DNA of 64,000 nt from Stentor roeselii (Eukaryota > Ciliophora > Heterotrichea > Heterotrichida > Stentoridae), in contig RSEH01000024.1 of assembly GCA_006503475.1 (NCBI GenBank), positions 153,244 through 217,243 of the forward strand, read 5' to 3'. The notes beneath the pieces were generated by a model. That model ran no database searches. It had not been told where the DNA came from and saw only the letters and a list, made by a program, of their open reading frames with translations. Each line of letters opens with the position of its first letter. The stretch's first letter is position 1. A program made the position numbers and the translations under genes. Below, piece by piece: positions 6,127 through 64,000 of this stretch.

Positions 6127-6708
6127 TTAAAGATTTACTCTCGTCCCTAACAACTTCAACAGCTCTGCCAACACCCTCGGATGAGCAGACCAACCCGGTG
6201 CAGTGACAAGAAATCCATCAACCATGACTTCATCTTCACGCATCTCAATATACTGTCCTCCTGCAAGAACTACTTCAGTGCTACAGCCTGTGTAAGTCGT
6301 GCATTTCTTTCCATTTAAAACTCCAGCAGCAGTTAAAACTTGCATTCCATGGCAAATTACTGCAATAGGCTTCTGACTCACTGCGAAATGTCGAGTGATC
6401 TCTAAAACTCTTGCGTTTAAACGAATGTATTCAGGAGCTCGTCCTCCTGGAATTATCAAAGCGTCGTAGTCTTCACCCCGGATCTCGTCAAATGACGCGT
6501 TTAATGTGAAGTTGTGTCCTGGCCTCTCGATGTATGTTTGATCGCCTTCGGAATCGTGCACTGCTGTTCGGATCTTTTCACCTGACTTCTTGTTTGGACA
6601 TACTGCGTGCACTGTGTGGCCAAGCATTTGAAGGGATTGGAACGGAACCATCAACTCGTAGTCTTCGACGTAGTCACCTGCTAGGATTAGGATTTTCTTT
6701 CCTGACAT
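6127..6708 (-). CDS. DJ-1/PfpI family protein, copy A
   Basis: 193 aa, one DJ-1/PfpI domain covering the whole protein. The nucleophile elbow reads AVICHGMQ with Cys119 followed by His120, and an acidic residue is supplied by GDYVEDYE near the N terminus. The block [18 protein letters not shown] and the GHNFTLNA motif resemble plant DJ-1d-type proteins, which have glyoxalase III or related stress activity. The enzymatic role is inference from family. It is a tandem duplicate of the gene at 6897-7478 on the same strand, 188 bp apart; the first 52 residues are identical. Copy A differs mainly in the C-terminal third. Confidence 0.9.
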   Translation of the reverse strand: MSGKKILILAGDYVEDYELMVPFQSLQMLGHTVHAVCPNKKSGEKIRTAVHDSEGDQTYIERPGHNFTLNASFDEIRGEDYDALIIPGGRAPEYIRLNARVLEITRHFAVSQKPIAVICHGMQVLTAAGVLNGKKCTTYTGCSTEVVLAGGQYIEMREDEVMVDGFLVTAPGWSAHPRVLAELLKLLGTRVNL

Positions 6709-6896: not shown

Positions 6897-7478
6897 TTAA
6901 AGTTCAACCCTAGTCCCCAACAACTTCAAAAACTCAGCCAACCACTTCGGATGAGCAGGCCAAGCCGGAGCAGTAACAAGTTCTCCATCAACAACCGCAT
7001 CATCAACAGCAATCTCCAGATACTGTCCTCCAGCCAAAGTGACTTCAGTGCTGCATGCGGGATAAGCAGTGCATTTTTTTCGATTCAAAACTCCAGCCGC
7101 AGCCAACAACTGCAGTCCATGACAAATAGCAGCAATCGGTTTATGACTATCTGCGAAATGTCGAGTAATCTCTAAAACTCTTGCATTTAAACGAATGTAT
7201 TCAGGAGCTCGTCCTCCTGGAATGACAAGCGCGTCGTAGTCTTCACTCCGAATCTCGTCAAAAGTCGCGTTTAACGTGAAGTTGTGCCCTGGCTTCTCGG
7301 AATAGGTTTGATCGCCTTCGAAGTCGTGCACTGCTGTTCGGATCTTTTCACCTGACTTCTTGTTTGGACATACTGCGTGCACTGTGTGGCCGAGCATTTG
7401 AAGGGATTGGAAGGGAACCATTAACTCGTAGTCTTCGACGTAGTCACCTGCTAGGATTAGGATTTTCTTTCCTGACAT
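6897..7478 (-). CDS. DJ-1/PfpI family protein, copy B
   Basis: 193 aa, full-length DJ-1/PfpI domain with the same N-terminal block as copy A. The catalytic motif is AAICHGLQ with Cys119-His120, and GDYVEDYE is conserved. Likely a cytosolic stress or glyoxalase-type enzyme; the reaction is not provable from sequence. Upstream lies a 1.4 kb gene-poor stretch, so this copy probably carries the ancestral promoter while copy A is transcribed from the 188 bp spacer. Divergence between copies is concentrated after residue 110, for example in the loop after the nucleophile and in residues 153-165, suggesting changed substrate preference or relaxed selection. Confidence 0.9.
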
Positions 7479-12140: not shown

Positions 12141-13607
12141 TCAGTGATTTTCGATGTTTTCTTTTATTTCTAAACGTGTTGGCTCGAATTCTGAAATGAT
12201 TTTTTCTTTTAGAGTGAATGGAATGTTGAAGTTTAACATTGATTTCGCAGTTAAACAACACTCGTAGAGGAGGACTATGTCGTCTCTTGATGATTTGAAG
12301 ATAAAGGATATCCAGAAGAAGACTCCTTCGAAGTTTTCAACGAATTTTAAGGATTTTCGGAGAAATTCGAGACCTTTTTTGTAGATGAATTTTAAATTTG
12401 GGGGTGGGATTGAATGGTTTTTTAGGATTTGGCTTAGGACTTCTTCGGTTTTTAGGTCTTCGTTTGATGTGTTTTTGTTTACTCTTGGAAGTAGAGAGAG
12501 AAGTGACAGGCTAATATAAAGCTGGTCAAATGGAAGACTATGCAAATTTGGTACCAAAGAATAAACCTGATCCTTACACTCAGGATAAAGTGTCAAAACT
12601 GTAACAAGTAACTTTTTAATACAATTCTCTTCCTTCTTCCTGCGCAAGACCTCAAAATACTCCCCATTATTCCAAGTTTGCCAAAAATTTTCAAAACTTA
12701 AAAAACTCGAAGTTTTCTGCAAAATATTCAAAGCAAATCCTTTTAAAAGTCCAGCAGCTTCATCATTAGTTTCAATGATTTGCCTGATATTATAAACGAC
12801 CTGCCTAACCAAAGCAAAGTACTTATCCTGTGTGATGTCAACATTAGTAATAATTGTGTAGTTAACCTTAAGATACTCCTCCAGTATCCTCTGAGTGAAA
12901 AGAGCTGGAAAAATATTTTCAATCAGATTCAAGCCCTTGAGTACCACCCTGAGCCTTCCTTCTCCATTCAGAGTATTAAGCAAACTATCAGACTTCCCCA
13001 AAAGTTCTAAAATCATTTCTGGGTCTTTCTTGACAGTTAAACTTTTAATGATAATCTTATCAAAATCCTCAGAATTAACAACATTCCACAACGGTCTTAA
13101 AAATGGATAAATCCTTAAAATCCAGTCTCTAAACTGTCGAAATTTTGTCCTTCTTTTAATCTGAGTCTTGATCAGAACTTTTAACACCCTGATGTCAACT
13201 TCATTCAAATTCCAGGCCTTTTGGTCAAAGTACTCTAAAAGTTCAGGCCAAGTCTCATAAAAGTCGAACTTGCTGACTTGTTCCAAGCATTGAATCAAAT
13301 GATTCACCCATGCGGGGTTTGGAGTAGTCTGCAAAAGTTTGAATAATAAGAAAGACTTTACTCTGGACTTCTGGTCTTGGGTGATATTTGATGAGCTCTG
13401 CAAAGCTGATGAGTGCCATTGACGAGTTATCACAGATTTCGCCAGGATCAGTGAAAAGACTTGCAGTTGGACATCTGGGCTTGATTCAAATGTGCTCAGC
13501 AGAGGAAGAAGAAGATTTCCTGAAGATTCTAAAGAGTTTAATTCAACCTCACTTGGAATACGAAGACTGGCATCTGGACTTAGCGCATGTCTCAGCAGGT
13601 CTTCCAT
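12141..13607 (-). CDS. Importin-beta/exportin-like HEAT protein, short
   Basis: 488 aa, all alpha-helical repeats. The start (LLRHALSPDASLRIPSEVEL) matches the usual N-terminal helix pattern of importin-beta-type karyopherins, where a bundle of partial substrate is added to a 'SPD...R..AE..L' helix, and WVNHLIQCLEQVSKFDFYETWPELL resembles the 'FP.W.eLl' helices of the first HEAT repeats. Typical importins have 850-1100 aa, so this one is about half length: either a genuinely short family member or a C-terminal loss. It is divergently arranged with the PH/papain-like gene with only 20 bp between the start codons. Role in nuclear transport is inferred. Confidence 0.65.
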   Translation of the reverse strand: MEDLLRHALSPDASLRIPSEVELNSLESSGNLLLPLLSTFESSPDVQLQVFSLILAKSVITRQWHSSALQSSSNITQDQKSRVKSFLLFKLLQTTPNPAWVNHLIQCLEQVSKFDFYETWPELLEYFDQKAWNLNEVDIRVLKVLIKTQIKRRTKFRQFRDWILRIYPFLRPLWNVVNSEDFDKIIIKSLTVKKDPEMILELLGKSDSLLNTLNGEGRLRVVLKGLNLIENIFPALFTQRILEEYLKVNYTIITNVDITQDKYFALVRQVVYNIRQIIETNDEAAGLLKGFALNILQKTSSFLSFENFWQTWNNGEYFEVLRRKKEENCIKKLLVTVLTLYPECKDQVYSLVPNLHSLPFDQLYISLSLLSLLPRVNKNTSNEDLKTEEVLSQILKNHSIPPPNLKFIYKKGLEFLRKSLKFVENFEGVFFWISFIFKSSRDDIVLLYECCLTAKSMLNFNIPFTLKEKIISEFEPTRLEIKENIENH

Positions 13608-13627
13608 TAATCGGCTTATTATTTAAT

Positions 13628-14644
13628 ATGTTTGATGATGATGACTCTTGGATACAAAGTGATGAAGAAGATCACTTCCCAAAGACTTGCCCTGATTTAC
13701 TTTGGAATGACTTGATTCAGTCCAGCCAGAAGTCAGGGTGGTTGAAGAAGATGTCTCGAGGTATCATCAAAAAGAACCTGCTTCAGAGGTGGTCTTATAG
13801 ATTCTTCGCTTTGAACTCTCATAAGCTTTTTTTATTTAAATCACCTGAATCCAAGTTTCCTTGTGGAGTTATTGATTTTGATCAAGTGCAGATCTTTTTA
13901 ACTCGTGAAGAAAATAAATTGATTTTGAATCCGAGTAATGGGGCGAATTTAATGACTTTGAGATTGTATGATGAAAGTGAATTGAATTTGTGGCAGGAAT
14001 GTATTTTGTCGGTTATTTCTAGATCTAAAGGAACTCAAGAAGGGAAAATTGCACTGGGGAAAAAACAGAAATTTTGGAAATTTGAGAGAATTTGTGAATT
14101 TGATTTCTTGGAAGCGGCGGATACAGGTGACCTACTGCTTATTCGAAGCGAGACACTAGCTTCTAAAATCAGCAGAACTTTCATCAAAACTCACGACCGC
14201 ATCGCACTAATCCTAAAGTACGTAAACGGAAAAGTAGCCTTATTCGAAAAAAACCAATCAGGAAAAACTGAAATCCTCCTTTGGGATGATTTTTTAAAAG
14301 ACTCCTCAATTTCCAGCACCCTAAATATCTTTTGGAGAAGACTAAACGTAGAAAAAACCGACGAAATGATGATTCAACTCGAAGAATTCGTCCAAAACAC
14401 CAGAACTCAAGATTACTCCTCAAACCTAAATCCAGCCCTTCAAAGCGAAAAGGTAAAACTCGACGTTTCTCTATCATTTTCAGCAGATCTCATCTCAGAA
14501 GCCTATAAAGAAATGGGAATTCTCAGTAAAGAGTTCTCTCAAAAGCAATACATTCCTGAAGACTTCAGTAAAAACAAAGATCTAATCTTCGAACAAGGAG
14601 CAAGTCTCGACCGAGAACTGCTGATCGACTTCGACATTGATTAA
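13628..14644 (+). CDS. PH domain + permuted papain-like (YiiX/NC-type) protein
   Basis: 338 aa from ATG 13628 (the frame is open further upstream but would overlap the divergent importin-like gene, so the downstream ATG is preferred). Residues about 34-130 form a pleckstrin homology domain (GWLKKMSRG, RWSYRFFAL, ending in the conserved helix Trp ELNLWQECI). From about 165 follows GDLLLIRSETLASKISRTF, typical of circularly permuted NlpC/P60 or YiiX-like folds, with a core strand IALILKYVNGKVALFEK. In this family the catalytic His usually stands in a D-H-V/I-A context; here it reads H-D-R-I-A, so the His position appears to be Arg. Probably membrane-lipid-binding via PH; the enzyme may be inactive. 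Its TAA shares two bases with the stop of the convergent CH-domain gene. Confidence 0.75.
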   Translation: MFDDDDSWIQSDEEDHFPKTCPDLLWNDLIQSSQKSGWLKKMSRGIIKKNLLQRWSYRFFALNSHKLFLFKSPESKFPCGVIDFDQVQIFLTREENKLILNPSNGANLMTLRLYDESELNLWQECILSVISRSKGTQEGKIALGKKQKFWKFERICEFDFLEAADTGDLLLIRSETLASKISRTFIKTHDRIALILKYVNGKVALFEKNQSGKTEILLWDDFLKDSSISSTLNIFWRRLNVEKTDEMMIQLEEFVQNTRTQDYSSNLNPALQSEKVKLDVSLSFSADLISEAYKEMGILSKEFSQKQYIPEDFSKNKDLIFEQGASLDRELLIDFDID

Positions 14645-50341: not shown

Positions 50342-50694
50342 AAGAATGATTGTGGAAGTAATAATAATGTTAATGTGAAACAGATAAAACATTTATAGTT
50401 AAATTGAATGCCATTAGTCTTCAAAGCTTAAAAAAAGGTATTTACATTTCATCACTCAAGATGATAACAATAGGTTGTATCCTAAGACTCATCAGGATCA
50501 GTTACTTGTAAAAGACACTCTTCCAAGCATTTTCTTACTAAATTTGGGTTGAAGTAAAAAAAAGTTATGCTGAAAACGCCGTGTTTTCCAATATCAGCAT
50601 TTATAAATTAAATCAATGATTTCTTTTGAATTTCCTAAAATTTTCATAGTTTCTTCTTAATTTCAAAATAGTGAGATAAAAAAAGTTTATTCAA
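50342..50694. other. Start of decayed region
   Basis: No intact frame. On the minus strand near 50480-50560 a short stretch (NPNLVRKCLEECLLQVTDPD) looks like the end of a lost protein. Confidence 0.35.
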
Positions 50695-51213
50695 ATGAAT
50701 AGAGAATTCGAAGATCACTTCATCAGTATTTCAAAGACCAGCTAGATACCGTTAAAAACAAGAAATACTAGAGTTCATAAAAAATCAAGCAATTCCATAG
50801 TCTTCATCTCAAACCTGAACTCATTCCTAATAAACTAGTTTAAAAAACCTGGTAATAATTTCAGACACACATATAATGTGAAAAGCTGAAATGAAAATCC
50901 AGGCTGGAAACTAGGGAAACCAGTTCACAGATTTAATAATTTTGGCAAACTCATCTTAAATTTTTCAAAAATATCTCTCTTTTAGTTTTGCAAAACGAAA
51001 ATTTCAAGTCCTGTCAAACAAGTAAAGCGAGAAGATCAACACACAATTAAAGGTACCTCACATGCAATACCTAGTAACCTTCCAAAGGCCGATAACGTGC
51101 AAAAGCATCTAAAAATATGGAAAGTGCTTAATGCAACTCAGAAATTCTTCAGAATTGATCTGGTTTACAGTCACAAACTAAGATTAATAAGGAGAGGTAC
51201 CTTCCGAAGGTAA
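50695..51213 (+). pseudogene. Degenerate frame, unidentified
   Basis: From ATG 50695 a single plus-strand frame runs 172 codons to TAA 51213 with four internal stops (TAG, TAG, TGA, TAG) and no frameshift. Chance would give about three times as many stops at this base composition. The second half (VQKHLKIWKVLNATQKFF) looks coding. No 15-nt GT-AG intron removes the stops. Unknown protein, probably a dead gene. Confidence 0.4.
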
Positions 51214-51702
51214 AGAAATGAGTGAGTTGTACAAAGCAATTGATTATTCCTATCTCATCGAACACTGAATTTTCACTATAGTTTTTCGCTCATGGTCTCT
51301 CGTTCAAATTAAAGGAAGGGTAAAGATTTAAACAACAAAGATAGCAGGAGACTTTTTGGATTTTTTTTATTGGCAACCACTCAAAGTCATGGTTAAATTT
51401 TTCATTATCCTGTGACAGAGACAAATTTTTAAGAATAAAGAATATATAGAAAGTATAAAGACAGACAGAAAATTATCAATAATTAATCTAGCAGAAGATA
51501 ACTTTAGTCGATAGGAAATACTTTGTATCACCGATACAACTTTGATGACACAAATATTATAAGTTTCGAATATATGTCAATTATGAATTGGTATTATTTT
51601 CGGGATATTGTCTTATCAATTATATTAGTTTGCAAATCTTCAACTCTTACAATATCTTAACTGATAATCATGAAAGATATAAAATAAAAATAAGCTTTTA
51701 AA

Positions 51703-51909
51703 ATGTTTAGCGATATCTTGAGTTCTGGATTGAAAATGTTTTTTGAAGATTTAAATCATGAAGAAGGAATCGATAATATGATGATTAAAATGTATAAAAA
51801 TTTATTTATAGGCTATATTACATATTTTATAATGCTCAATACAGTTATAGCTACATTTCCACTGACTCTATATATAGGTATTGAAAACACAAAATTTATA
51901 AAGACTTAG
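51703..51909 (+). other. Short open frame, doubtful
   Basis: 68 codons from an ATG, with a hydrophobic second half (YITYFIMLNTVIATFPLTLY). Isolated in decayed sequence with no recognised family. Could be a chance frame or a fragment of a membrane protein. Confidence 0.25.
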
Positions 51910-52069
51910 AAAAATCATTTTACTGCATAAATGAACTAAAAATAAAATTTTAAGTAACTCAAATATTAATCTACTGAAGAGAACTACATAGATTTAATAT
52001 ATATAGACATGATGACTATGAACTTATGAAGGCTTATCATAATATTCCCAACAGTGAGCAAAGACTTGA

Positions 52070-52555
52070 AATAGAATCAATTTATCATTGATTCCAAAAT
52101 ATGTTTTATGTCTTAAAAATGAATTTACTTTTATCGTTAAGACTCCAATGGTGGAGTTATTTTAATCGAAAGAATTATTTTTCAGTTAAAAAGCAAAAAA
52201 ACAAAAGGCTGCTTTACTAATTGTAATCAGACACGAGCTATGCCATTTAATATGGATTATATATGGTGTAAAGGCATTTACTGTAGAATCACCAGCAACC
52301 TGCAAATCAGTTAAAAAAGATGTTGAAGAAGTCTTCGATAGAATGGTTCATGTAGATTTCACTGAAGATGCAAGTTTTTACATAAATGGACTAACAAAAA
52401 AAATTTCACAAAACCAAATTCTTGATTCTACTAAAGTCAATTAGCTGTTTCATACAAATGATGAGATAAGAATCTGGAAAAAAATGAATTGGTTAGATAT
52501 TGTTCCAAGAAAGAAGTTGTGCAATTGGAGATATCTTATTATCCTTAGTAATTAA
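52070..52555 (+). pseudogene. Relic with HELCH metallopeptidase-like motif
   Basis: A plus-strand frame of 162 codons with three internal stops (52163, 52187, 52442). It contains ALLIVIRHELCHLIW, a helix with the HExxH zinc-peptidase signature, followed by coding-like sequence (SVKKDVEEVFDRMVHVDF). An alternative frame just upstream (NGGVILIERIIFQLK) may belong to the same gene, implying a frameshift. The family could not be named. Confidence 0.45.
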
Positions 52556-52713
52556 TGTAAAATTCGGTAAAATACGAATAGTAATTTATTATACTATATA
52601 CACTTATAAAATAAAGAACTTTTCAATAAATTTTTCATCTCTAATTATATTTCCAAACACCAAAACACTATAACATAGCCTTAACACTAATCTCCATTAG
52701 GATCTACTTAAAC

Positions 52714-53880
52714 TTAGAAAGAAGAAGAAGTTTTAATAGTCCTATCAAGCTTATCCATTAAATTCACCGATTTTTCACTAGCATTACTACAGAGAATTTT
52801 GAGTATTAGCTATCCTCTGCTTCAAACGAATCATCTTAGTTAAAACCTTTTCTTCTTTTTAAAAAAAAAAAATTTTTTTCATAGTACTCAAGAGATTTAT
52901 CAACTCGTTCAATTTAATGAATGATAGGGTATGTGTATTCTTCCTCAAAAAGTGCATCTTTGATCTCGAACTTTTGCAAAGCCTCACTGATTATTTCTTG
53001 TCCTCTGATGGACGTGCAGCCTATAAACGAGATCCAGGTTTCCAAGTTTGTCCCATTTATTTACCCATATTATTAGCTAATATTTCTTTCTGATCAATCC
53101 ACCTTATTTAAGGTTCATTTGATGGTCTCCGCCTTGGTGAATGCGATGTCAAGTGCTATCTGGTTTTTTATCTTTGATTGACTTGTCAACCTTTAGAATG
53201 ATCAAGCTTCACACTATTTTATAGCTGATGATAGAAATGCTAGGTGAAGAGGGGAGAAATCTTCTTTGCTTGAGTTTTTAATTCTTCGCTCCTGACTAGA
53301 AGCAACATTTCGGTGCCCACCTGGCTTTCAAAATATGCCATGTGCAGAGGGGTCCGACTATTATTGTCTTTTTCACATAGGAAATATTGAGAAGCATAAG
53401 TAGACCAAGATTCCTTCGAAACCATTTGAGGTTGCAATGTGATCAAGCAATGCACATTCGCATCCTTCCTCCAAAAGTCCCCGCCTAACGAAATAAGTTC
53501 CTGTAAAAGTTTCTAAATCCTTGGTAACTTCCTAATATGTTTAACAGCACACATCAAGTGAGTGAGCTTTTCTCTTCCGGCATTCTGGTTCAGCATATAT
53601 TTGATTATTTCCTTATTCTTCAAAATAACCTTCTTGAACTAATTCAGATTTCTAAAAACTCCAACAATACGATTCTTTTACATCACAACCATAAAAATAT
53701 TATAACCCGAAGGTTCTTTCAGCGAAATCAGTAGGACAGAATTGTTCTTAAGTATCGAAGTATTCTCCTGGACATTGATAGTCTGCATCTAAATGCTCAA
53801 CGAGACCTTGATTCATGTCCTGCCTTAATTTTATAACCAACCTGATGTTATTTATGTATAATTTAAAAGATATCTAACAA
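52714..53880 (-). pseudogene. Ankyrin-repeat protein relic
   Basis: Minus strand, pieces in several frames. Clearest is DNNSRTPLHMAYFESQVGTE then MLLLVRSEELK, an ankyrin repeat (TPLHxA), continuing as AKKISPL. Upstream near 53560-53640 another repeat-like piece (VILKNKEIIKYMLNQNAG). Downstream a coding-like tail (EALQKFEIKDALFEEEYTYP; MDKLDRTIKTSSSF) ends at a TAA (52714). Several stops and frameshifts are present, so it is dead. The original protein may have been a channel or signalling protein with ankyrin repeats. Confidence 0.6.
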
Positions 53881-53890
53881 GGAAAAGGTG

Positions 53891-55158
53891 ATGATCGTCT
53901 TCGAAATTAGTAAAAAGGAAGTTGTGAGTCCTCAGACTGGACTTAGCAAGCTTCTTGAGCTTTTTACTTGAAATACAAGTTTTGGGTTAGTACGAACTGC
54001 GAAATTATAACTCTTAACCGCCTCGCTGATGCGGATTTGTTTGTTGTCCCTGCCCCAAGAGAGTTGTTCAGCAACGAAGAGTTAGACTCGGTAAAATTTA
54101 TTTGTAGAGTAGAGGAAATGTGCTGGTCCTGTTGGAGAAGGCAGAGAGAACAAGTTGAAGACAAATTTCAATTAATTGCTTGAACAGTACGGGATATTTG
54201 GCAACACTACTCTGTAATCAGGACTATTTTCAATCGAAAGAACTTTCATCTGAAGGAATGTCTTGTTTCCAAAGGAATTATTAATAAGGAAATCTCCAAC
54301 TTTGAAAGTTGAAACAAAGGGCAAGGGAAATGTGGTGTCACATTTACTGAGAGATGACTGTACAGACCTTGAAGACGAACATAGAAGTTTTTCTTTTGCC
54401 TACACCTTCGGTTGTACTCTTAAATTCAAAAGCTAAGCATTCTTCTTCTGTCAACCGACGCGTTTTCCTACCCTTTGAACCGTCCATTCCAGCGATTTAC
54501 ACTTCGAAAGCTCGGAAAAGCCGTTTGATGGTCCTGGTCTCCTACCATGTTCATTCGGACAACTAAATCGAAGAGAATTCCAAACTGCAGCAATCCTTCT
54601 CAAACAGCTGCTGACCTACGACCTTGATCTAGACCTGGGCCTTGAAGAAGACAAGGTCCTGCAGGACTTTCAGTGATTTCCGAAATTCAATCATTTCAGA
54701 ACAGTTAAAAACTGTCTCCAGATTTCAGAAGGTCTGTCAAATAAATTCAAAGTCTTTTGATATGTCATTGTTAAGTTCGACACCGACATGATCCCTGAAG
54801 CATCAAGCTCTATACGGAAATGAATGTGAAAAAGAAGCATTCACTTTGATACATCCTCAGTTCTAAACCCCTTTGCCTTTAATCACTCAACAGTCTTTCC
54901 ACCACCCTCAAAGAACCACAAGATCCGAATCTTGAACTCTCGACTTGGATGACGACTTCGCGAGTGAAAAGGTGAAACTTGACATAATAAAAAAAATATA
55001 ATGATGAAGATGCCGAGTTTTACATCTGCAAATGCGGCGATATCCTTGGAATCACCCAGCAAATCAAAAGACTAAAGTTCGGATATGGTGGCGAAAACGA
55101 TGCGAATGCCGTTTTACATAAATTTTGGTGGATTGGTTAAGTTCAAGAAAATGATTAA
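53891..55158 (+). pseudogene. IFT52: IFT52 pseudogene, nearly full length
   Basis: Plus strand, broken into pieces by several frameshifts and stops, but collinear with IFT52 over its whole length. N-terminal piece MIVFEISKKEVVSPQTGLSK; then KFWVSTNCEIITLNRLADAD and LFVVPAPRELFSNEELDSVK (GIFT domain, PRE-x-F motif); then FLPFEPSIPAIYTSKARKSR with LMVLVSYHVHSDN (human: PLNRPILAFYHSKN..GKLAVLGSCHMFSDQ); C-terminal SEKVKLDIIKK and DEDAEFYICKCGDILGI (human: EEDLEFYVRKCGDILGV). At least one lesion is a single-base change in a poly-A tract near 54990. Intraflagellar transport complex B component elsewhere in the genome is expected. Confidence 0.85.
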
Positions 55159-55199
55159 TTAAAATTATTGATAAGATGATTAAGTCTTCTCAGCCAAAT

Positions 55200-55640
55200 A
55201 ACGGGTTGTTTCCTGTTTCGAAGTTTAAACGTTTCGGGATATTTTCCCTGCTTTAGAATTGAATTTGGAAGATTTGGAACTAGAATGAGGAAAACTTTAC
55301 CTTTGATGTATAAAGGCTTTCTTGAAGTATCTTGTTTAGGTTTTGATGAAAGGTCTAAGAGATCATATTTAACTTTCGTGTTAAATAGTTGGGATATGAC
55401 TTTTTTTATGATTTTACTTGTCTTGGTTTTAGCTCTGTTGGAGTTTGATTTTTTGGATCACTAGGAAAGAGTCTTTTGGAGTTTCTGCAAAGAATGGGGA
55501 ACGGGGATGGCCGAATCTGAATTTTGAGCTTCTGCTTGGGCATCTCGAAAGGAAAACTAAAAATTTATTGAGTTTTTGTACTTGGTGCAGACTTGAAATT
55601 TTTTTCAATAAAGTTCTTTTACATTAATGGTCTTTTCAAA
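55200..55640 (+). pseudogene. Unidentified coding remnants
   Basis: Two plus-strand pieces look formerly coding: a membrane-like one (YLTFVLNSWDMTFFMILLV, about 55355-55460) and another near 55500-55600 (LNFELLLGHLERKTKNLL). They lie in different frames with stops between. No family recognised. Confidence 0.35.
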
Positions 55641-55739
55641 CTGTGATCCCTTTTATTAGTCGATTCATTGATATTTAAATCTAGTTTTTCTATTTAAAAT
55701 CAAAGTCTTCCTCTTAAGTCATGACTTTCGTTCAAGTTT

Positions 55740-56548
55740 AATGCCTCGAATCAAAACACAAGCTAACTAAATCTTAAAGGAGGTTCGACATTGTTCCAAG
55801 AATCTTTTCGACCAACTTTATCATACTTTTCCTAATTTCCATCATAATATGGATCGTATAGTTCAGATATCGTCATATATTCATGAGACAAAGGAAAACG
55901 AGAGTTTCTACACATTTAAACTTTTCTCCCTGATAACAGAATTTTCAATAAGTGACAAAGCCAATATGCAGAGAACAACTTTATTAATATGATGGTCTCG
56001 TTTCAACTGTTCGGCAAATCCGATTTCTTTGTGATAAATGATCATCGCATCTTTAAAGAGTTTGTGCTCTAATAACAAAGTGACCTAAGGACTGACAATA
56101 TCTTGGCATAAACCTAAAGCCCATATTCATCAGTAATCAAGTTGATAGTGAGTGCATTAACTTATTCCTCATCTCAATGATCCTTAGCACAATGTTCAGC
56201 AGCCATGAACGAGTACATCCTTAGAGCCTTTTCGCCATTTGACTGATACTGAACATTTAGACAGCTTTTTCAGTGCCTTGCAGATACTTAGAGTAATTTT
56301 CACTCCTCAATGAAACAATAGCGAGGTTTTCAAAGATTATTCCAGCTGCCCAGCTGTGAATAATTTTAACACATTCATCATTTCACTAACTTTTTCTAAT
56401 AATTGTTGGCCCCATCGACGTTTGGACTGAGTAGGCTTTGGCAGCGGATTCGAAATTGACAGCAGAGTTGCACAGTCGAGTTTGGCCTTAAAGAGGCCAG
56501 TTTTCATTCCTTTTAACCCTTTTTGTACTCTGAGTCTCAGTCGGCCAT
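55740..56548 (-). pseudogene. Gamma-SNAP (NAPG) pseudogene
   Basis: Minus strand, broken by many frameshifts and stops but collinear with gamma-SNAP. From ATG 56548 (MAD*) come MKTGLFKAKLDCA and SAVNFESAAKAYSVQ (human gamma-SNAP: LKTGFLKWKPDYDSAASEY, GKAAVAF); then IIFENLAIVSLRSENYSKYL; then YSFMAAEHCAKDH; then LLLEHKLFKDAMIIYHKEIG and FAEQLKRDHHINKVVLCILA (family: rrFdEAalsiqkEk...cykkt); final ELYDPYYDGN-EKYDKV. TPR-like helices are recognisable throughout. Gamma-SNAP is a partner of NSF in membrane fusion; an intact copy elsewhere is expected. Confidence 0.75.
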
Positions 56549-56559
56549 TATTAGAAGAA

Positions 56560-57260
56560 GCTTATAAAAATAAAAAAGTGTAAAAGGTAGGTCCTTGACC
56601 AGCACACTTCCAGTGATGTCTAAAAACAGCATCCCGTGATGCTTCATTCTTTTGAAAAGCTTTTCAGATATTAGACTGTTTTTGTTTCCCTATTTTCACG
56701 GCGAAGAACTCTGCAAGTTTCTTGCGTCTCGTCGATGAAGTTGATGAAAGGGTCTAATGGTTTCAGAAGGATAGAGATCCACCTTCGTATCGACAGTCTT
56801 AACTGACTCAGATCTGGAGTTCTTTTGTTCACCTGTGAGCACCCACTTGGATCAGTCGGTCAAGTCTTTTTTTTCTTCCAATAGTCGTCGACTACTCTTC
56901 GGATCGCACTTGAATGACAGAAAACCAGATCGAGTACATCTGAGGATACTCAAGCATAAATCTTAAGTGACTGTCACCAATATTTCAACGATTTGCAACA
57001 ATATGCAAAAGGTGGTTCGAATGGGAACTCGCCGACTTGCTTCCTGAAATGTCTGACAGCTTTTTCGTAAGTGCGGACATAGAACAATTCAGAGTCTATC
57101 ACTTGAAGCCATATCAGGAAGTAGCTTTTAGTTTCTGGTTGTCTAAAGTGCAGATCACCTTATCTTGGTAGACAATCTAAGCAAAGACAAACTCATTTAA
57201 ACCCCCTCTGAATTTGAAATTCCTGTAGTCTTGTCTCGCACGTTCATACATCGAAATGCC
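56560..57260. pseudogene. Unidentified relic, strand uncertain
   Basis: Coding-like pieces occur on both strands. Plus, 57015-57170: WFEWELADLLPEMSDSFFVS. Minus, same area: IDSELFYVRTYEKAVRHFRK, and further on KHHGMLFLDITGSVLVKDLP near 56600-56680. Stops and frame changes interrupt both. I favour the minus strand, because pieces continue over a longer distance. No family named. Confidence 0.35.
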
Positions 57261-57849
57261 TGACCTTGGAATTAATTTATAAAAAGTTATGGTAGCTTAA
57301 AATTGAAGGAAGAGACTCGGAGAAAAGAGAATTTAATTAAAGGTCTAAGGTTAACTTGATTATAGTTGGGTTGCATTTCAAGAAGGACGGCATCACATCA
57401 TCTGAGCATTTATAGATTATTTTGTTGAAGATGAGGTGATTGGTATTGAACCTTGGATCCTGAAGATTATATTTGATGGAATGTGTTTAAAGCAATTTGA
57501 GCTTTTTTTTGAGAGCAGAACATAGAGAATTATCATTAATGTTTATGTTAGGTTAAATTTCTTTTGAATATGGTAATCAAGTTTAGCTTTTTGGGTTTCG
57601 AGATATTTTAGTGTAATGATGTGATAATCGGAGGAATTAGGATACTGTAATAAATATATTTTTTATCAATTTAAAGTTTTTAAAAAATTATTATATTCTC
57701 TTATCAGATAAAATTATAAAGCGATCAATCAGAATTGATTTTAATTCCTTTCCTACAAATACACTAGTAGCAATTAATCGATTTAATATAAATTTTAATT
57801 TTTCTATATATTTACCAAATCTATAACCAACTTTTTCATAAATATAAAA
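57261..57849. other. AT-rich intergenic region before GTPase cluster
   Basis: No coding frame seen. A TTTTTCTATATATTTAC element about 40 bp before the ATG at 57850 resembles the element found upstream of the other GTPase copies. Confidence 0.5.
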
Positions 57850-59166
57850 ATGGAAACTGACTTTGACTTCAGTGTTGTTGTTATTGGAATGAGCGGATCA
57901 GGAAAATCTGCATTTCTGAATGCTCTGAAAAACTATTTGGAAGATCGTTCTCCTGAAAATTTTATTAACGCCTTTGATTCAAATTCTAGAACTATTGATA
58001 TTGAAAAAAAACTTAAATCCGAAATAGTGATCTCTCAACATAATGGCAAAAAATATTTACTTATAGATACTCCTGGATTATGCGATACAAGCGGAAATCT
58101 CATAAGTAAAGAAGAAAACGCAAAGATTATACTGAACAATCTTAGAAACCTTAAATATATAAATGCAATTATATATGTTAATAATAGCACCATATGTAAA
58201 GTTAATAAAGAATTTCGAGAAGCTGCCTTATTAATGCTAAAATTTTTGGTTGCTGATGTTAGAAAAATAACTTATTCAGTATTTACTTTTAGTTCAAATC
58301 AGCTATTTATGGAGGATGAAGATGTAGAAAAAGATATTAAAAAAGTAGAGAAGATCTTAAAATTTAAAACAAATCCCGAAAACATAGTTAAAATAAACAA
58401 TATCTTCTTCAATTTATCACAAGAAAAAATAATGAATTATTTAAAAGTAGTTACTATGAAATGGAATGAATTTAAAGAACAAAAAATAGCTACTATATTG
58501 CAATTGATAGAAAGAGAAAGAGTGGAAACTAATCAATATGAATTATTCGAGGAGTTTATTTATTCAATAATGGAAAATATTACTAATTGTGCCAGGAACT
58601 ATTATAATCAAAATTGTGTCAAGAATCAGAATTTAATTACTAGTAATTTTACAAGTGCAGAAACTGATAAATCAGAAGAGGAGGAGACAGTTCAAAAGCG
58701 TCTCATAGATACTCCTGGGAAAAAAAATTATTATTGTAGACGTTGTGAAAGAAATTGCTGTGAAAATATTGGATTATTTGGTGGATTTAAGTCAGCAATA
58801 TTAAAGGCTCTTAAATCTAAATGTGAGATATGCAAATGTAAAAATGCGTTTCATATTATTGGATATAAAGCATTTAGTGAAATTACTGAAGATTTAATTG
58901 AAGTCAAAGAAAATAATGAGAAAATTCTTACCCAAGTATATTTAGATCCCGAAACAATAAATAATATTATTTATAATACTGCAGAAAGTATAAATGAGAT
59001 AGAAAAAATTATCCCAGAATACTCAGTTAGAGATATTATTTCTGAAATCAAATCAATTAGTTTAGAAGAAGTGCAAAATCACCAAGAAAATTCATTATCT
59101 TATGAACAAGTGATTATCGATGTAATCAATCAACTCGAAAATTTTCTTATCAGCAAAATTAGTTAA
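57850..59166 (+). CDS. AIG1/GIMAP-like GTPase with Cys-rich zinc motif, copy 1
   Basis: 438 aa. Septin/AIG1-type GTPase: G1 GMSGSGKS preceded by hydrophobic VVVIG, G3 DTPGLCD, and the linking helices of the AIG1 class (NLRNLKYINAIIYVNNST). The G4 motif is not canonical (FSSNQLF). From about 293 a Cys-rich region: CRRCERNCC ... CEICKC ... H, likely a zinc site; many fish, mollusc and protist AIG1-like proteins carry such a region after the G domain. C-terminal helices follow. Codon use is more AT-rich than in the genes before 50 kb. Likely a membrane or immunity-type GTPase; role unknown. Confidence 0.8.
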   Translation: METDFDFSVVVIGMSGSGKSAFLNALKNYLEDRSPENFINAFDSNSRTIDIEKKLKSEIVISQHNGKKYLLIDTPGLCDTSGNLISKEENAKIILNNLRNLKYINAIIYVNNSTICKVNKEFREAALLMLKFLVADVRKITYSVFTFSSNQLFMEDEDVEKDIKKVEKILKFKTNPENIVKINNIFFNLSQEKIMNYLKVVTMKWNEFKEQKIATILQLIERERVETNQYELFEEFIYSIMENITNCARNYYNQNCVKNQNLITSNFTSAETDKSEEEETVQKRLIDTPGKKNYYCRRCERNCCENIGLFGGFKSAILKALKSKCEICKCKNAFHIIGYKAFSEITEDLIEVKENNEKILTQVYLDPETINNIIYNTAESINEIEKIIPEYSVRDIISEIKSISLEEVQNHQENSLSYEQVIIDVINQLENFLISKIS

Positions 59167-59209
59167 AAATTGATAAACACAAAATAAAGGTTTTATTTTA
59201 TAATTCTTT

Positions 59210-59226
59210 GAATATTCTATATTTTA
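59210..59226 (+). promoter_or_regulatory. Conserved upstream element, copy a
   Basis: GAATATTCTATATTTTA, 23 bp before the ATG of the broken GTPase copy at 59250. The identical 17-mer recurs at 59612 and nearly so at 60185. Confidence 0.5.
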
Positions 59227-59249
59227 GATAAAAATTTAAGTTAATTATA

Positions 59250-59330
59250 ATGGAAAGAAGTATGTTTAAGATGAGGTTTGATTATTTTGCTATCCCTTTA
59301 GGATTATCTGATATTTTTATTCGATAAATT
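59250..59330 (+). pseudogene. AIG1-like GTPase relic (5' end)
   Basis: Reads MERSMFKMRFDYFAIPLGLS then degenerates and stops. Compares directly with the intact copy 2 start MERMPNYDFCAIVLGLSG. The P-loop Gly/Lys is lost. Nothing of the rest of the gene is recognisable downstream. Confidence 0.7.
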
Positions 59331-59611
59331 ATTTGCTTTGAGTAACCTTACTCTAGCAATACTGATCACTAGATTATTTTAAAGTCAAGAGCAATAATAA
59401 AGCAAAATATGACCCTTGATAAATTATCAAGCCTTGAAACTAAGCACGAAAAAATGGAATTAAAGGCTATAAAATATTTAAAGTTTATAAAATCGATTGC
59501 TCTAATTCTTAAATATTCAATTGGGTAAGGTTCAGACTCTTATCAAATGTGAATATTCCTCAATAATGAATATAGTAATAGAGACATAATTAGAAGAATT
59601 TTTTAAAATTT

Positions 59612-59628
59612 GAATATTCTATATTTTA
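59612..59628 (+). promoter_or_regulatory. Conserved upstream element, copy b
   Basis: GAATATTCTATATTTTA, identical to copy a; about 50 bp before the second broken GTPase start. Confidence 0.5.
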
Positions 59629-59674
59629 AAAAAATATGTATAAAGTTATAAATATATAAATATATCTTACATAC

Positions 59675-59800
59675 CTTCTCATGATTACTATGCTATAGTT
59701 TTAGGTTTATCAGGTTCTGGAAAATCCTCTTTACTTTGCACTTAGTATAATTATCTAAAAGATTAGGACATATATTTCAGAAATTTCTAAATACAAATAT
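59675..59800 (+). pseudogene. AIG1-like GTPase relic with intact P-loop
   Basis: Reads HDYYAIVLGLSGSGKSSLL then CT* YNYLKD* DIYFRNF, parallel to copy 2 (DFCAIVLGLSGHGKSALL, YNYLSGN). The P-loop GLSGSGKS is still perfect although two stops follow within 20 codons, so decay is recent or the fragment was copied. No clear ATG. Confidence 0.75.
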
Positions 59801-60184
59801 AGGAAAATTAAAGAAATGCTTGATTGCATTATTAATGATGACTATTTTAGTTTAGATTAATAAATTTGATTCTAAATATGTTTTTAAAGTTCAACTAAAT
59901 GTTAAATTCGCTTAAATGAAGTCTAAACTAACTAAAAAAGTCATTTGATTATTAGAATAGGTACTTATTATTATTTGTATTATAATTCTATAAAGTTTTG
60001 TAAACAATTTCTTATCCAGGATTAATCTATATTTTTGTAAAAAATATAATATAATTATAAAGGTATAGATATGTTATCGATTTTTTCATATTAAAATCCA
60101 CACATTAATAATTATATCATTGAAGTATTCACAGCGGAACTTATGCTTATTAGTATCATAAATACATTGTTAATAGTTCTCTAT

Positions 60185-60200
60185 GATTATTCTATATTTT
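60185..60200 (+). promoter_or_regulatory. Conserved upstream element, copy c
   Basis: GATTATTCTATATTTT, 15 bp before the ATG of intact GTPase copy 2; matches copies a and b at all but one position over its length. Confidence 0.5.
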
Positions 60201-60215
60201 TTGTAATAATAAATA

Positions 60216-61421
60216 ATGGAAAGAATGCCGAATTATGATTTCTGTGCTATAGTTTTGGGCCTATCTGGCCATGGAAAATCTGCACTACTTAATTCTTTGT
60301 ATAACTACCTCAGTGGGAACTCTCCAGGAAATTTTGAGAATCCTTTTCTTGTTAGTGGAGGATCAGAGAGTTGTACCAAAGCAGTTGAATATTTTTCTAT
60401 TAAGAGTATCCACGACCAAAGAACATATCTCTTCATAGATACTCCAGGCTTTGATGATACGGAAGGAACTGTATCAAGAGAAAATGAAACCTTAAGAGAT
60501 ATAAAACAAAATTTAAACAAAATAAAAAAAATCAATGCTGTGATTTATGTTAAAAATATTACAGTAAATAGACAAAATGAATCATTCAGAAAAGCTTCAT
60601 CTTTGATACTTAGAGTTTTAAATAATGATATCAAAGAAATATCAATTGCAGTACTAACAAATACGGATAAAATTTATGATATTTTATGTGATTCTGATGA
60701 GGGAAATGGTAGATATATCAATCCATTATTTGAACAGACAAAAATTATGTTTGATGAACGTAGGATTTTCTGTGTTGACAATAAAATTCATAATTATACA
60801 AAGAGTCAAATACAAAGCAATGCGACTAGGTTTAATCAATATTGGAATTCATTTTGTCCTGAATTAAGCCCTATTATAGAATCAATCAAGCAAAAAGAAA
60901 TTCAAAATACAAGGGCACATCAAATTAATGAATTTGAACTACGAATATTAAATAAAATTAATGAAACTGAATCAATGATTAAAATTATTGAAGGAACTAC
61001 ACGTGGGTATGGTAAAAAAAAATCCAACAACCTTCATTATATTTGTAATGAATGCTTCAAAACTTGTATCAATAATCCTGGTAGAGTAAAAAGGTTTATT
61101 TTATCAATAAAAACATTCTTTAAGAGGAGTTGTGATGAATGCAATCATAAGTGCAATAATCATCAAAGTGATTATTATTATTGGGAATTAGAATATAAAT
61201 TCAATAATACTCAGAAATCAAAGAGTTTTGTAAAACAAAATAAAAGTGAACTAAGAAATTATTATGAAGAATTAAAATGTGAAATAAAAATATTGAAACA
61301 TATAGAGCCGGATTATGATATAATGAGTTATATTTTAGACCTTTCTTTTGATAAGAAAGGAAAAATTTATGAGTTTATTCAAAACATCCTGGACGATAAA
61401 CCATATCCATATAAGAATTAA
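60216..61421 (+). CDS. AIG1/GIMAP-like GTPase with Cys-rich zinc motif, copy 2
   Basis: 401 aa. G1 LGLSGHGKSALL, G3 DTPGFDDTEGT, a G4-like TNTDK, and AIG1-type helices (NLNKIKKINAVIYVKN). From about 274 the Cys region CNECFKTC ... CDECNHKC ... H precedes YYYWELEYKF; spacing differs from copy 1 but the two CxxC pairs are kept. C-terminal helices end near DDKPYPYKN. Compared with copy 1, conservation is in the G domain and the Cys pairs, so both are probably under selection. Family roles elsewhere include membrane association and innate defence; in ciliates unknown. Confidence 0.8.
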   Translation: MERMPNYDFCAIVLGLSGHGKSALLNSLYNYLSGNSPGNFENPFLVSGGSESCTKAVEYFSIKSIHDQRTYLFIDTPGFDDTEGTVSRENETLRDIKQNLNKIKKINAVIYVKNITVNRQNESFRKASSLILRVLNNDIKEISIAVLTNTDKIYDILCDSDEGNGRYINPLFEQTKIMFDERRIFCVDNKIHNYTKSQIQSNATRFNQYWNSFCPELSPIIESIKQKEIQNTRAHQINEFELRILNKINETESMIKIIEGTTRGYGKKKSNNLHYICNECFKTCINNPGRVKRFILSIKTFFKRSCDECNHKCNNHQSDYYYWELEYKFNNTQKSKSFVKQNKSELRNYYEELKCEIKILKHIEPDYDIMSYILDLSFDKKGKIYEFIQNILDDKPYPYKN

Positions 61422-63329
61422 TAGAATTATTAGAATTAATAGAGTTATTTTAATTTTAAATATGCAATATTTTGATGAATCAACCAAAAACTTGAATTTG
61501 GTCTATTAAGACGGCTACTTAACTAGAAGAATTGATAAAAATTTCGAATATTATAGATATTAAATAGCATATATTTTATACCTGTCTCACAATTTAATAT
61601 ATAAACATGAATTGATTATCATCTTGATAGGAAGTCTTGATAATTTCTGAGCTTAAAATTCACAATAGATTAAAAATTACCAATCATAACTATGCAGGCG
61701 AACTAATAAGGACTTTTAGGTTATATTGATATATATTTAAAATAAAGACTATTCTGAGTGCGATCTTTTAGATTTATTTATGAATATGATGAACATTTAA
61801 AACATAGAGGACTAAGAGAACTATATAATTAAGCCTATCTAAACTATCTTAAATGCAATCCGTATATTTAAAAATCATTAAAACTTCAATAGTAAATTAT
61901 TTAAAGACAGTTAGTTGATAATAGTTGGTATATCTAATTAACCTTTTCGATTATAGTAAATTTTATGAAATATAAAAATGTAAAAAACAATCTACTAAAG
62001 CCAGAAAGATCAGATCGTTCCCATAAGTTTATTACAAACATTATTAAACTTTATTGGTTTTTTAGAAAATTTTATTTCTATGAAGATTTTTCATATAAAA
62101 AGAGTTAATAAACGAAAATGAAGCAATTGGAGTATCTACAAAATGACTTGGATATTGATAATTAAGGTTTTTATTATAATCAACTAAAGCAAATACTTAA
62201 AAATTTTAGACATAATCAACCGAAAAATTAATAAAGACCATATTTGTCTGGAGTGATTATCATAATTATGCTATTCGAGCTGAAAACACGATAGAACTTC
62301 ATAATAATTAAATATAAGGAAAATATAATTATTATTATACAGAATTAAGTCATTCAAGCTCAAATAAGTTTCTTAAAATCAAGAAAATATTTTAAATATA
62401 CTTAAAATCCATTGATAGTAAAAAAAGAATCAAAATCTATCAAGTTTTAAGTTGGTAAAGTAAATTTTATTACCAAATTTACAAAATTTAATATAAATCT
62501 AGTAACTTATTGAGTTCTGTTAAAGTTACAATGTTTTTTAAGACATGTTGTGTAAACCTGCTATCATTCTAATTTTTTCATATACCCTCCTCATTTCATT
62601 CTATTATCACATACTCTCTACCTTATGATTCATACCTATCGTTTTTTATGTAATAGTTTTTTTAAATGGATGGGAAATAAAGTGAAAACTTACATTTAAA
62701 ACTTGAAAAGGGGTAGTCATCCCACCTAGGATTTTAACACTTTTGTTTTTATTTTTGCTTATTATACTGGAAAAGGTGGAGTCGTCATAACACCCCAAGT
62801 TTATTAATACTATAAAAGATTTGCTTAAAAGAAAAATTTTTAAAAGACTAAGTTGTTTAAAAATAAGAGAGTATTAGAGAATTAAATATATGAAGAAAGA
62901 GATGAACTAAGATTCTATTAGTTTATTTTTTTTATTTAATATTGATCACCAGAATCAATTGTTTATGGAAAAAATGGAAGATAGATAGATTGAAGGAATG
63001 AGAGAGACTGGAATGTTTTAACAAAAAGTTATGAGACTGAAATAAATATAAAGGCTGAAGAATGTATATAGAAACTGAAGAGATCAGATATAATTTAAAC
63101 TTTTGCAAAGGATGAAGTACTAACCTGAAGAAATATATTGAAGGGATGTTTTAGCAAAAAAAAAATTAGAGAAAGAGTGATGAGAAAGAGAGACTGAAAT
63201 TATTAGATTAATTAAATAAATGAGAAAGACACTGAAGAAATAATTGAGACTTTAGGGATGAGAGGTACTCAGAAATAAACTTTGATTAAATATAAAATAA
63301 AGATTTGAAAGCGAAATCTCAGACCTGAT
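61422..63329. other. AT-rich region with possible GTPase relic
   Basis: No intact gene. Near 62320-62390 the frame KYNYYYTELSHSSSNKFLKI resembles the segment after the zinc motif of GTPase copy 2 (DYYYWELEYKFNNTQKSK), so a further dead copy may lie at about 61950-62450. Near 61770-61850 YDEHLKHRGLRELYN also looks formerly coding. After 62500 only purine-rich, AT-rich sequence is seen. Confidence 0.35.
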
Positions 63330-63907
63330 GACTTCAATAAACGAACTCATCGGAGTCTTAATAACAGCTGCGATATGGGTAAGTGGTTAGTCATCTGATC
63401 ATTCGACTGTAAAACACAATAAACTGTAAGGAATTTTCCCAGGCAAGAGCCAAGACATCTGGAAGTGTAACTGGGAAGTAATTCTCTGCCACCTGCCAGA
63501 AAACTTGAAGTCATTGAGAGCCCAAGAAGTAGTCGCAGCTGTAATTCTCATTGAAAAAGATGATCCTTCAAAAAGGATCCAAAAAGTTCTGAAACGTAAG
63601 GTTTCAAAGGCAAATATCTCAAAAAACCCTCAGAAGTCTCAAGTCAGTCACCAAGGCCCTAGACGAAACACGACTCAAGGCCTCAGCAAAAAGGAAGTCA
63701 GCAAATAGGTAAAATCAAATTTGAAACTGGTTTTTCATGTTGCAGGTGATTCTTTCAAACCTGTTCTTACAGGAATTCTTTAACGCATGCGGATGGGGAT
63801 CTCTCTCAGTTATCAACAGACTGGAAGGTTACGCTAAGTTAGTTCATGGGGTTCATAAGAACCCAAAAACACTTCTTATTCATATTTTCTTCCATTTTAA
63901 ATCTTAG
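63330..63907 (+). pseudogene. Unidentified relic before right edge
   Basis: Plus-strand pieces in two frames: about 63334-63708 (GKSQDIWKCNWEVILCHLPE, NLKSLRAQEVVAAVILIEKD, then a basic tail ending EVSK*), and 63743-63907 (QVILSNLFLQEFFNACGWG, SLSVINRLEGYAKLVHGVHK, ending in a TAG). Stops at 63390 and 63426 interrupt the first. Codon use is less AT-biased than the surroundings, supporting former coding function. Family unknown. Confidence 0.4.
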
Positions 63908-63933
63908 AATTGTAGAACTTTGATTATAATAAA

Positions 63934-64000
63934 ATGAAATGTCAAGTCTGCTCAACCCAAGCTTTCTTCATCTGTCACTGCTCCAATGCTTATATGTGTA
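63934..64000 (+). CDS. Zinc-finger protein, 5' end only
   Basis: ATG at 63934 begins MKCQVCSTQAFFICHCSNAY, running off the window after 22 codons. The spacing C-x2-C-x7-C-x-C resembles the fingers of the genes at 25632 (MEKCEICNRQHFCFICVC) and 8911. Partial by truncation of the window, so downstream domains are unknown. Confidence 0.6.
   Translation, partial: MKCQVCSTQAFFICHCSNAYMC

Follow-up and report, generated by a model that had tools for sequence, protein, structure and literature searches.

Does a small cluster of GTPase genes at a contig end of the ciliate Stentor roeselii belong to a family that is gaining and losing members and, if so, what might such a family do? The cluster lies in a stretch of 64,000 nucleotides (the window: contig RSEH01000024.1, here C161, positions 153244-217243, which reaches the contig end) of an assembly of 44.4 Mb in 522 contigs. 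A sequence-only reading had described it as an AIG1/GIMAP-like cluster with birth-and-death turnover, in which two intact GTPases with a Cys-rich module alternate with at least two dead copies. The two intact open reading frames (ORFs) have exactly the ends first given. Both encode septin/AIG1-like GTPases with a C-terminal Cys module and run on the forward strand to a TAA stop, gene 1 (g1) at 57850-59166 with 438 residues and gene 2 (g2) at 60216-61421 with 401. Within this genome the family shows birth-and-death evolution. Our results further suggest, with about an even chance of the whole being right, that g1 and g2 belong to a family of septin-related ('paraseptin') GTPases that has expanded in this lineage and has a C-terminal helical region and a probably zinc-binding Cys/His module; their role may lie in recognition or at an internal membrane.

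The family was assembled by using five proteins and the Pfam family as queries, followed by reading of ORFs and scoring of the best candidates, so that the counts are lower bounds. At least 13 intact genes carry the module: two each on C161 and on a second contig, C11, five on C74 and one each on C334, C338, C233 and C502 (the modules of C74:49375 and of the C233 gene were read by eye and stand outside the alignment of 11 described below). A lost or worn module is seen in C74:104757 and in a 954-residue ORF at C358:2424-5288, which is made of two tandem family units, the first without the P-loop Lys (GASGKGMS). More distant members lie at C494:132877, C74:47632 and C74:65563. Interrupted or dead members are present on C74 (86538, with one stop, and 821-2037), on C502 (12220 and 13136-14463) and on C358 (11462, 13109 with 22 stops, 17756 and 19657); for the mildly interrupted ones, tiny introns could be the explanation instead of damage. 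In a tree of 29 rows, which we rooted on eight AIG1-scoring proteins without the module and which holds no proven AIG1 or GIMAP sequence, g1 and g2 group with their C11 copies (99/99). A second clade is made of ten rows from AT-rich contigs (100/99), and a third unites the four rows of C338, C233 and C502 (100/99). The eight module-less proteins, whose scores of 24-38 bits are no better than those of g1 and g2, fall on one side of a branch supported at 100/99. The forks joining the main clades are weaker (85/89 and 88/95), and C104 forms a long branch whose place is unsure. The proposed turnover is borne out by a block copied to another contig, one certain dead copy, the lineage-specific clades and the broken copies elsewhere; inside this genome, which is where we looked, the genes are multicopy and have duplicated within the lineage. 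Neither viral contigs nor prokaryote genomes gave a relative that tblastn confirmed; the queries were a profile and a single protein, and a query of the latter kind finds only close relatives.

The duplicated block spans window positions 56165-63311 and has a copy at C11:140943-149244 in the same order and orientation, at about 90% identity. Over 4572 aligned non-coding sites the copies differ at 373, and there are 48 indels; two of these, of 731 and 396 bp, are sequence found on C11 only. With 29% identity to each other, g1 and g2 are old duplicates, the recent event being the copying of the block. Could the two blocks instead be alleles, or alternative versions of one macronuclear region, with no segmental duplication at all? 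The shared gene order and orientation over 7 kb would fit this, as would the many alternative telomere addition sites of the heterotrich Blepharisma described in an excerpt of PMC9942806. However, homology stops on both sides of the block, with unrelated sequence beyond it on C161 and C11, a divergence of 7-10% is high for alleles, and the 5' part of the block is also present on a third contig, C338, where window positions 55201-57641 recur at 81% identity. We regard the allelic explanation as highly unlikely.

The C11 block lies near a telomere. The contig ends in (GTGTTAGG)n, a permutation of the CCCTAACA repeat, 2279 bp from the stop codon of the C11 g2, and CCCTAACA is the telomere repeat given for Blepharisma in the same excerpt (PMC9942806). 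As Blepharisma has many alternative addition sites, the C11 end may be one of several. A stop inside the C11 g2 that a similarity search had suggested proved to be the natural stop codon of the gene. Telomere proximity is observed for the C11 block only; C161 breaks inside a repeated gene. The start of this dispersed gene, at 63304-64000 on the forward strand, is Cys-rich, the C102 copy continues, as judged by eye, into WD40-like repeats, and the contig ends within the gene. This stretch is matched on 28 other contigs, the 62-bp overlap of C11 counted in; in 17 of them the match lies within approximately 4 kb of a known contig end, and several copies break off 629-707 bp past the match. We considered the window end as a subtelomeric repeat and rejected it: the copies on C102, C42, C429 and C372 are without the telomere repeat and the C102 frame looks like a WD40-repeat gene, so that assembly breaks in a repeated gene explain the contig ends better. 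The repeated gene is probably a cause of assembly breaks. The same doubt about a telomere applies to C338 and C233, where family genes lie no more than 0.5 kb from the contig end.

The dead copies had been counted as at least two, one of them with a perfect P-loop. That one is certain. Detected by tblastn at 59671-59757 on the forward strand (E 3.6e-4 at a database size of 44 Mb; 3.2e-4 in another run), it comprises approximately 29 codons with an intact P-loop, GLSGSGKS, and a stop at the sixth codon after it, a similarity that lies beyond chance. In its counterpart on C11, g2 residues 1-91 and 222-353 are matched in pieces over C11:144870-145644 (E 5e-10 and 5e-9), with stops and frame changes, and an extra weak piece reaches 145747 (E 0.8); the stretch between g2 residues 91 and 222 was not found by tblastn. 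The window keeps so little of this copy because the 731 bp that follow the shared part on C11 are missing from it. The two remnants thus represent the same g2-type dead copy, more decayed in the window than on C11. The second proposed copy fared less well. A region at 59195-59330 (forward strand), assessed by shuffles, resembles the start of g2 (FDYFAIPLGLS), but the likeness is weak and may be chance: near 59249, shuffled peptides did as well in 18/2000 cases against g2 and 120/2000 against g1, shuffled DNA did so in 15/500 and 153/500, and 22 family proteins as queries gave no tblastn match at E<=1.

To which class of GTPase do these genes belong? The window copies of g1 and g2 both have a G1 P-loop of the form GxxxxGKS, read from the translation as GMSGSGKS in g1 (57886-57909, forward strand; G13, G18 and K19 are invariant in alignment A1) and GLSGHGKS in g2 (60258-60281, forward strand), and both have the G3 motif DTPG. 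At the place of G4, read by eye, g2 has TNTD and g1 TFSS. Above the Pfam cut-offs, g1 matches MMR_HSR1 (38.4 bits), Septin (30.5), AIG1 (30.1) and ATP_bind_1 (27.8), and g2 matches AIG1 (35.8) and MMR_HSR1 (29.4); the curated cut-off for AIG1 (PF04548) is 27 bits. The Septin match spans only residues 4-96 of g1 (profile positions 2-87 of 280) and g2 has none at E<=1, so by Pfam neither gene has a full septin domain. Searched as a single sequence against the PDB, g1 found septins plus one ABC ATPase at 0.097, and g2 gave no matches. A profile of 11 family members reached 56 PDB sequences. Septins took the first seven places, followed by Toc34-type chains and GIMAP4 (E 0.002). Together, these matches suggest that g1 and g2 are best called septin/Toc34/AIG1-group GTPases, or 'paraseptins', the term under which an excerpt of PMC11238149 places TOC34/TOC159 and AIG1/GIMAP together. 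Structure models were too poor to use (mean predicted local distance difference test score 33.5 from a single sequence and 44.0 from a two-sequence alignment).

The Cys/His module lies at residues 296-335 of g1 (58735-58854) and 277-316 of g2 (61044-61163), both on the forward strand, and reads C-x2-C-x3-C-x21-C-x2-C-x1-C-x4-H in g1 and C-x2-C-x3-C-x21-C-x2-C-x3-C-x2-H in g2. The early claim that its spacing differs between copies is accurate for the second half, while the first half and the x21 spacer are the same in both genes. All 11 aligned modules, in rows that were picked for carrying the module, share the same residue in six columns (C, C, C, C, C and H). The fuller form found on C338, C502, C334 and C74 is roughly NTxC-x6-CHxxC...CxCM...CxxCxC-x4-HxH, of which the g1/g2 module is a shortened version; MAFFT opens a gap to align the second Cys of the window genes with the CH position, and an ungapped reading would pair this Cys with an earlier C/H instead. 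No Pfam model exceeded its cut-off over the module in the full proteins scanned for it, no known zinc-finger family was recognised with the module alone (best Pfam match at E 0.0099, in one of 11 members), and nothing in the PDB matched at E<=1. Among the literature matches listed, judged by title and abstract opening, nothing relevant to an AIG1 zinc module appeared. Similar modules may also occur behind G domains in other protists and fungi. The module is probably zinc-binding.

Are g1 and g2 being maintained? We compared the window and C11 copies of each gene, obtaining ratios of nonsynonymous to synonymous substitution rates (dN/dS) by the NG86 method of 0.79 for g1 (bootstrap range, 0.51-1.36) and 0.92 for g2 (0.57-1.56). 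As NG86 may overstate the ratio in AT-rich genes, neutral simulations with the block's own non-coding mutation spectrum were added. Both genes are open in both blocks, whereas only 14/5000 (g1) and 11/5000 (g2) neutral simulations stayed free of stops, and 12.9 and 11.8 frameshifting indels, respectively, would be expected from the 45 in 4572 non-coding sites. It is unlikely that the frames were held open by luck. The g1 nucleotide alignment has one 1-nt gap and an opposite one in the same 300-bp bin, both ORFs having 438 codons; the g2 copies differ by one inner codon and at the end. Amino acid changes in g2 numbered 72 against 82.5 expected (74-91). Within the G domain, there were 24 changes against 33.9 expected in g1 (23/2000 simulations as low) and 34 against 43.9 in g2 (43/2000). 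These figures indicate that the G domain is weakly constrained, more so than the rest of the protein. An older control pair from the family, C338/C233, has a dN/dS of 0.30, at a much larger dS of 0.49.

The Cys region behaves differently in the two genes. In g1 it has 15 changes against 8.9 expected (39/2000 as high), faster than neutral, and in g2 13 against 11.4; these are tests without correction for the number of regions examined. The region was set at 286-350 in the first dN/dS comparison, which gave 1.59 for g1 and 0.69 for g2, and later at approximately 291-345 (g1) and 271-325 (g2). The comparison of Cys region with G domain, proposed along with the sequence-only reading, came out as predicted in g1, where nonsynonymous changes are in excess in the Cys region (odds 3.4; Fisher p = 0.0002). 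In g2 the two regions do not differ significantly (p = 0.33). All 7 Cys/His ligands are spared in each pair. One explanation is that diversifying selection drives the rapid evolution of g1 and g2 as immune or recognition proteins, with a role like that of GIMAPs or plant IANs and the Cys module as a sensing surface. The g1 excess with its ligands kept, the turnover of the family and the telomere-adjacent block copy are consistent with such a role. However, the effect is modest, is seen in one of two genes and is uncorrected, and genes for mating type, genome rearrangement or endosymbiont control would look the same; we consider this explanation quite unlikely. A bolder variant is a telomere-mobile GTPase cassette that keeps its G domain and Cys/His ligands, with the intervening residues diversifying into a variable recognition surface. 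We think this very unlikely; if true, such a unicellular predator could keep renewing its intracellular sensors.

Several results weigh against the paraseptin reading that we prefer. The Pfam AIG1 model is unspecific, with its cut-off passed in 8 of 14 control prokaryote genomes and any match in 13. In this genome it has 20 matches, 15 over the cut-off; g1, g2 and the C11 g1 are among those listed, and the C11 g2 is not among the 20. The original label 'AIG1/GIMAP-like' is fair for the whole septin/Toc34/AIG1 group, but the AIG1 match is unspecific and in the tree g1 and g2 lie apart from the eight other AIG1-scoring proteins. Lower-scoring matches of the 11-member profile include translation factors, FtsY, Der and a dynamin-like protein, and no recognisable [NT]KxD motif was found in g1 by eye. 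As to selection, neither dN/dS value differs from 1 (Fisher p 0.34 for g1 and 0.80 for g2), a result that relaxed constraint also gives; in g2 the Cys region does not outpace the G domain; and the sparing of the 7 ligands could be chance in each pair (0.09 and 0.13). The C11 copy of g1 reads DTPR where G3 normally has Gly, and this copy may be failing. The block may instead be a duplicon close to the end of a chromosome that was released recently and evolves neutrally, with g1 and g2 on the way to becoming pseudogenes and still open for lack of time. Such a duplicon would account for the dN/dS values, the changed G3 Gly and the dead copy alongside, for a coding divergence (95/1314 sites in g1 and 113/1197 in g2) about equal to the non-coding one, and for the number of amino acid changes in g1, which overall is not below neutral (64 against 70.2 expected; range, 62-77). 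It does not sit well with the open frames in both copies or with the G-domain deficits in both pairs, and we judge it unlikely.

If g1 and g2 are indeed maintained paraseptins, a tentative mechanism may be sketched. The two genes form their own old and divergent clade, and their block has been copied between two contigs, one copy lying next to a telomere. Both frames have stayed open, with amino acid replacements accumulating at 0.8-0.9 of the silent rate and the G domain under the stronger constraint. Septins, Toc34 and GIMAPs pair in a GTP-dependent manner and assemble on membranes. By analogy, the GTP-bound G domain of g1 and g2 would pair by way of its nucleotide face and assemble on a membrane; oligomers of GIMAPs are described in an excerpt of PMC5884625. 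The metal-held C-terminal module, the fastest-changing part in g1, would contact a variable partner. The likeliest setting in a microbe-feeding protist, and this is a guess, would be an internal membrane, for example that of the food vacuole, with the proteins recognising or handling either the membrane itself or intruders inside it. A role in defence or recognition is at most an inference from the turnover.

The surroundings of the cluster differ from the rest of the window. The GC (guanine plus cytosine) content at third positions is 0.19 in g1 and 0.20 in g2 against 0.25-0.46 in the other 21 genes that we listed by hand, so that the two are compositional outliers among the listed genes, and the duplicated block has a GC content of 0.274 against 0.375 across window positions 1-50341. 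The ciliate code in which TAA and TAG encode Gln was discarded because the 23 listed genes close, under the standard code, with TAA (16), TAG (5) and TGA (2). These stops, together with the telomere repeat of C11, make it likely that the DNA is that of a heterotrich-type ciliate using the standard code. Just upstream of g1, the 7.5 kb at 50342-57849 hold no ATG-started ORF of more than 70 codons, the rest of the window being gene-dense. At 6127-6708 and 6897-7478, on the reverse strand, is a tandem pair of 193-residue genes, which by eye we take to resemble DJ-1/PfpI proteins. On C74, positions 40000-109829 form an AT-rich region of 70 kb (24.5% GC) with many P-loop proteins, both family GTPases and smaller ones; it also encodes six proteins of 575-1059 residues with an inner P-loop, of which three were scanned and none passed a Pfam cut-off. 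On C338, three tandem Cys-rich, RING-like genes (by eye) at 182612-186323 directly precede the family GTPase at the contig end.

How does this family compare with known systems? AIG1 proteins typically have a 'conserved box' and a C-terminal coiled coil or membrane anchor. The G domain of g1 and g2 resembles AIG1/GIMAP/IAN GTPases in exceeding the PF04548 cut-off, an unspecific match. In the tree, however, they sit apart from the eight module-less AIG1-scoring proteins of the same genome. As in septins, the G1-G3 region of g1 and the family profile align best with septins in the PDB, and g1 passes the Pfam Septin cut-off; unlike in septins, the match covers only about the first 90 residues, and g2 lacks it. 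The profile also matches Toc34-type chains of the Toc34/Toc159 group, over part of the G domain only; to our knowledge, a plastid context is not expected in this ciliate. A search of the literature linking AIG1/GIMAP with ciliates, or the Stentor genome with AIG1 GTPases, returned nothing beyond septin origins.

The closest parallels lie in the mode of evolution. Excerpts of three studies describe expansion, tandem clusters and loss of such genes, in the snail Biomphalaria (PMC7053062), in Entamoeba (PMC5884625) and among plant IANs (PMC12845241). The cluster resembles these genes in its tandem arrangement, lineage-specific expansion and loss. GIMAPs, by contrast, are defined in the excerpted PMC7053062 by a coiled coil, where g1 and g2 carry the C-terminal Cys/His module; the same excerpt calls the role of AIG1-type GTPases uncertain, especially in invertebrates. 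In Tetrahymena, according to an excerpt of PMC6564038, pericentromeric and subtelomeric regions are nurseries of young duplicated genes and show higher Ka/Ks, and P-loop NTPases are among the domain categories of species-specific genes. Our cluster is like the fast-evolving Tetrahymena families (leucine-rich repeat and others) near centromeres and chromosome ends in having young duplicates, here the block copies, and a high Ka/Ks, with telomere proximity here for C11 only; the terms AIG1 and GTPase, by contrast, occur 0 times in the main text of PMC6564038. What the present locus contributes to these systems is a variant with a Cys/His module, its occurrence in such a ciliate and a duplicated block whose divergence can be measured. 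It offers a small, testable ciliate case, in which a two-copy block, one dead copy caught at two points of its decay and a module changing against a fixed frame of ligands can be studied together.

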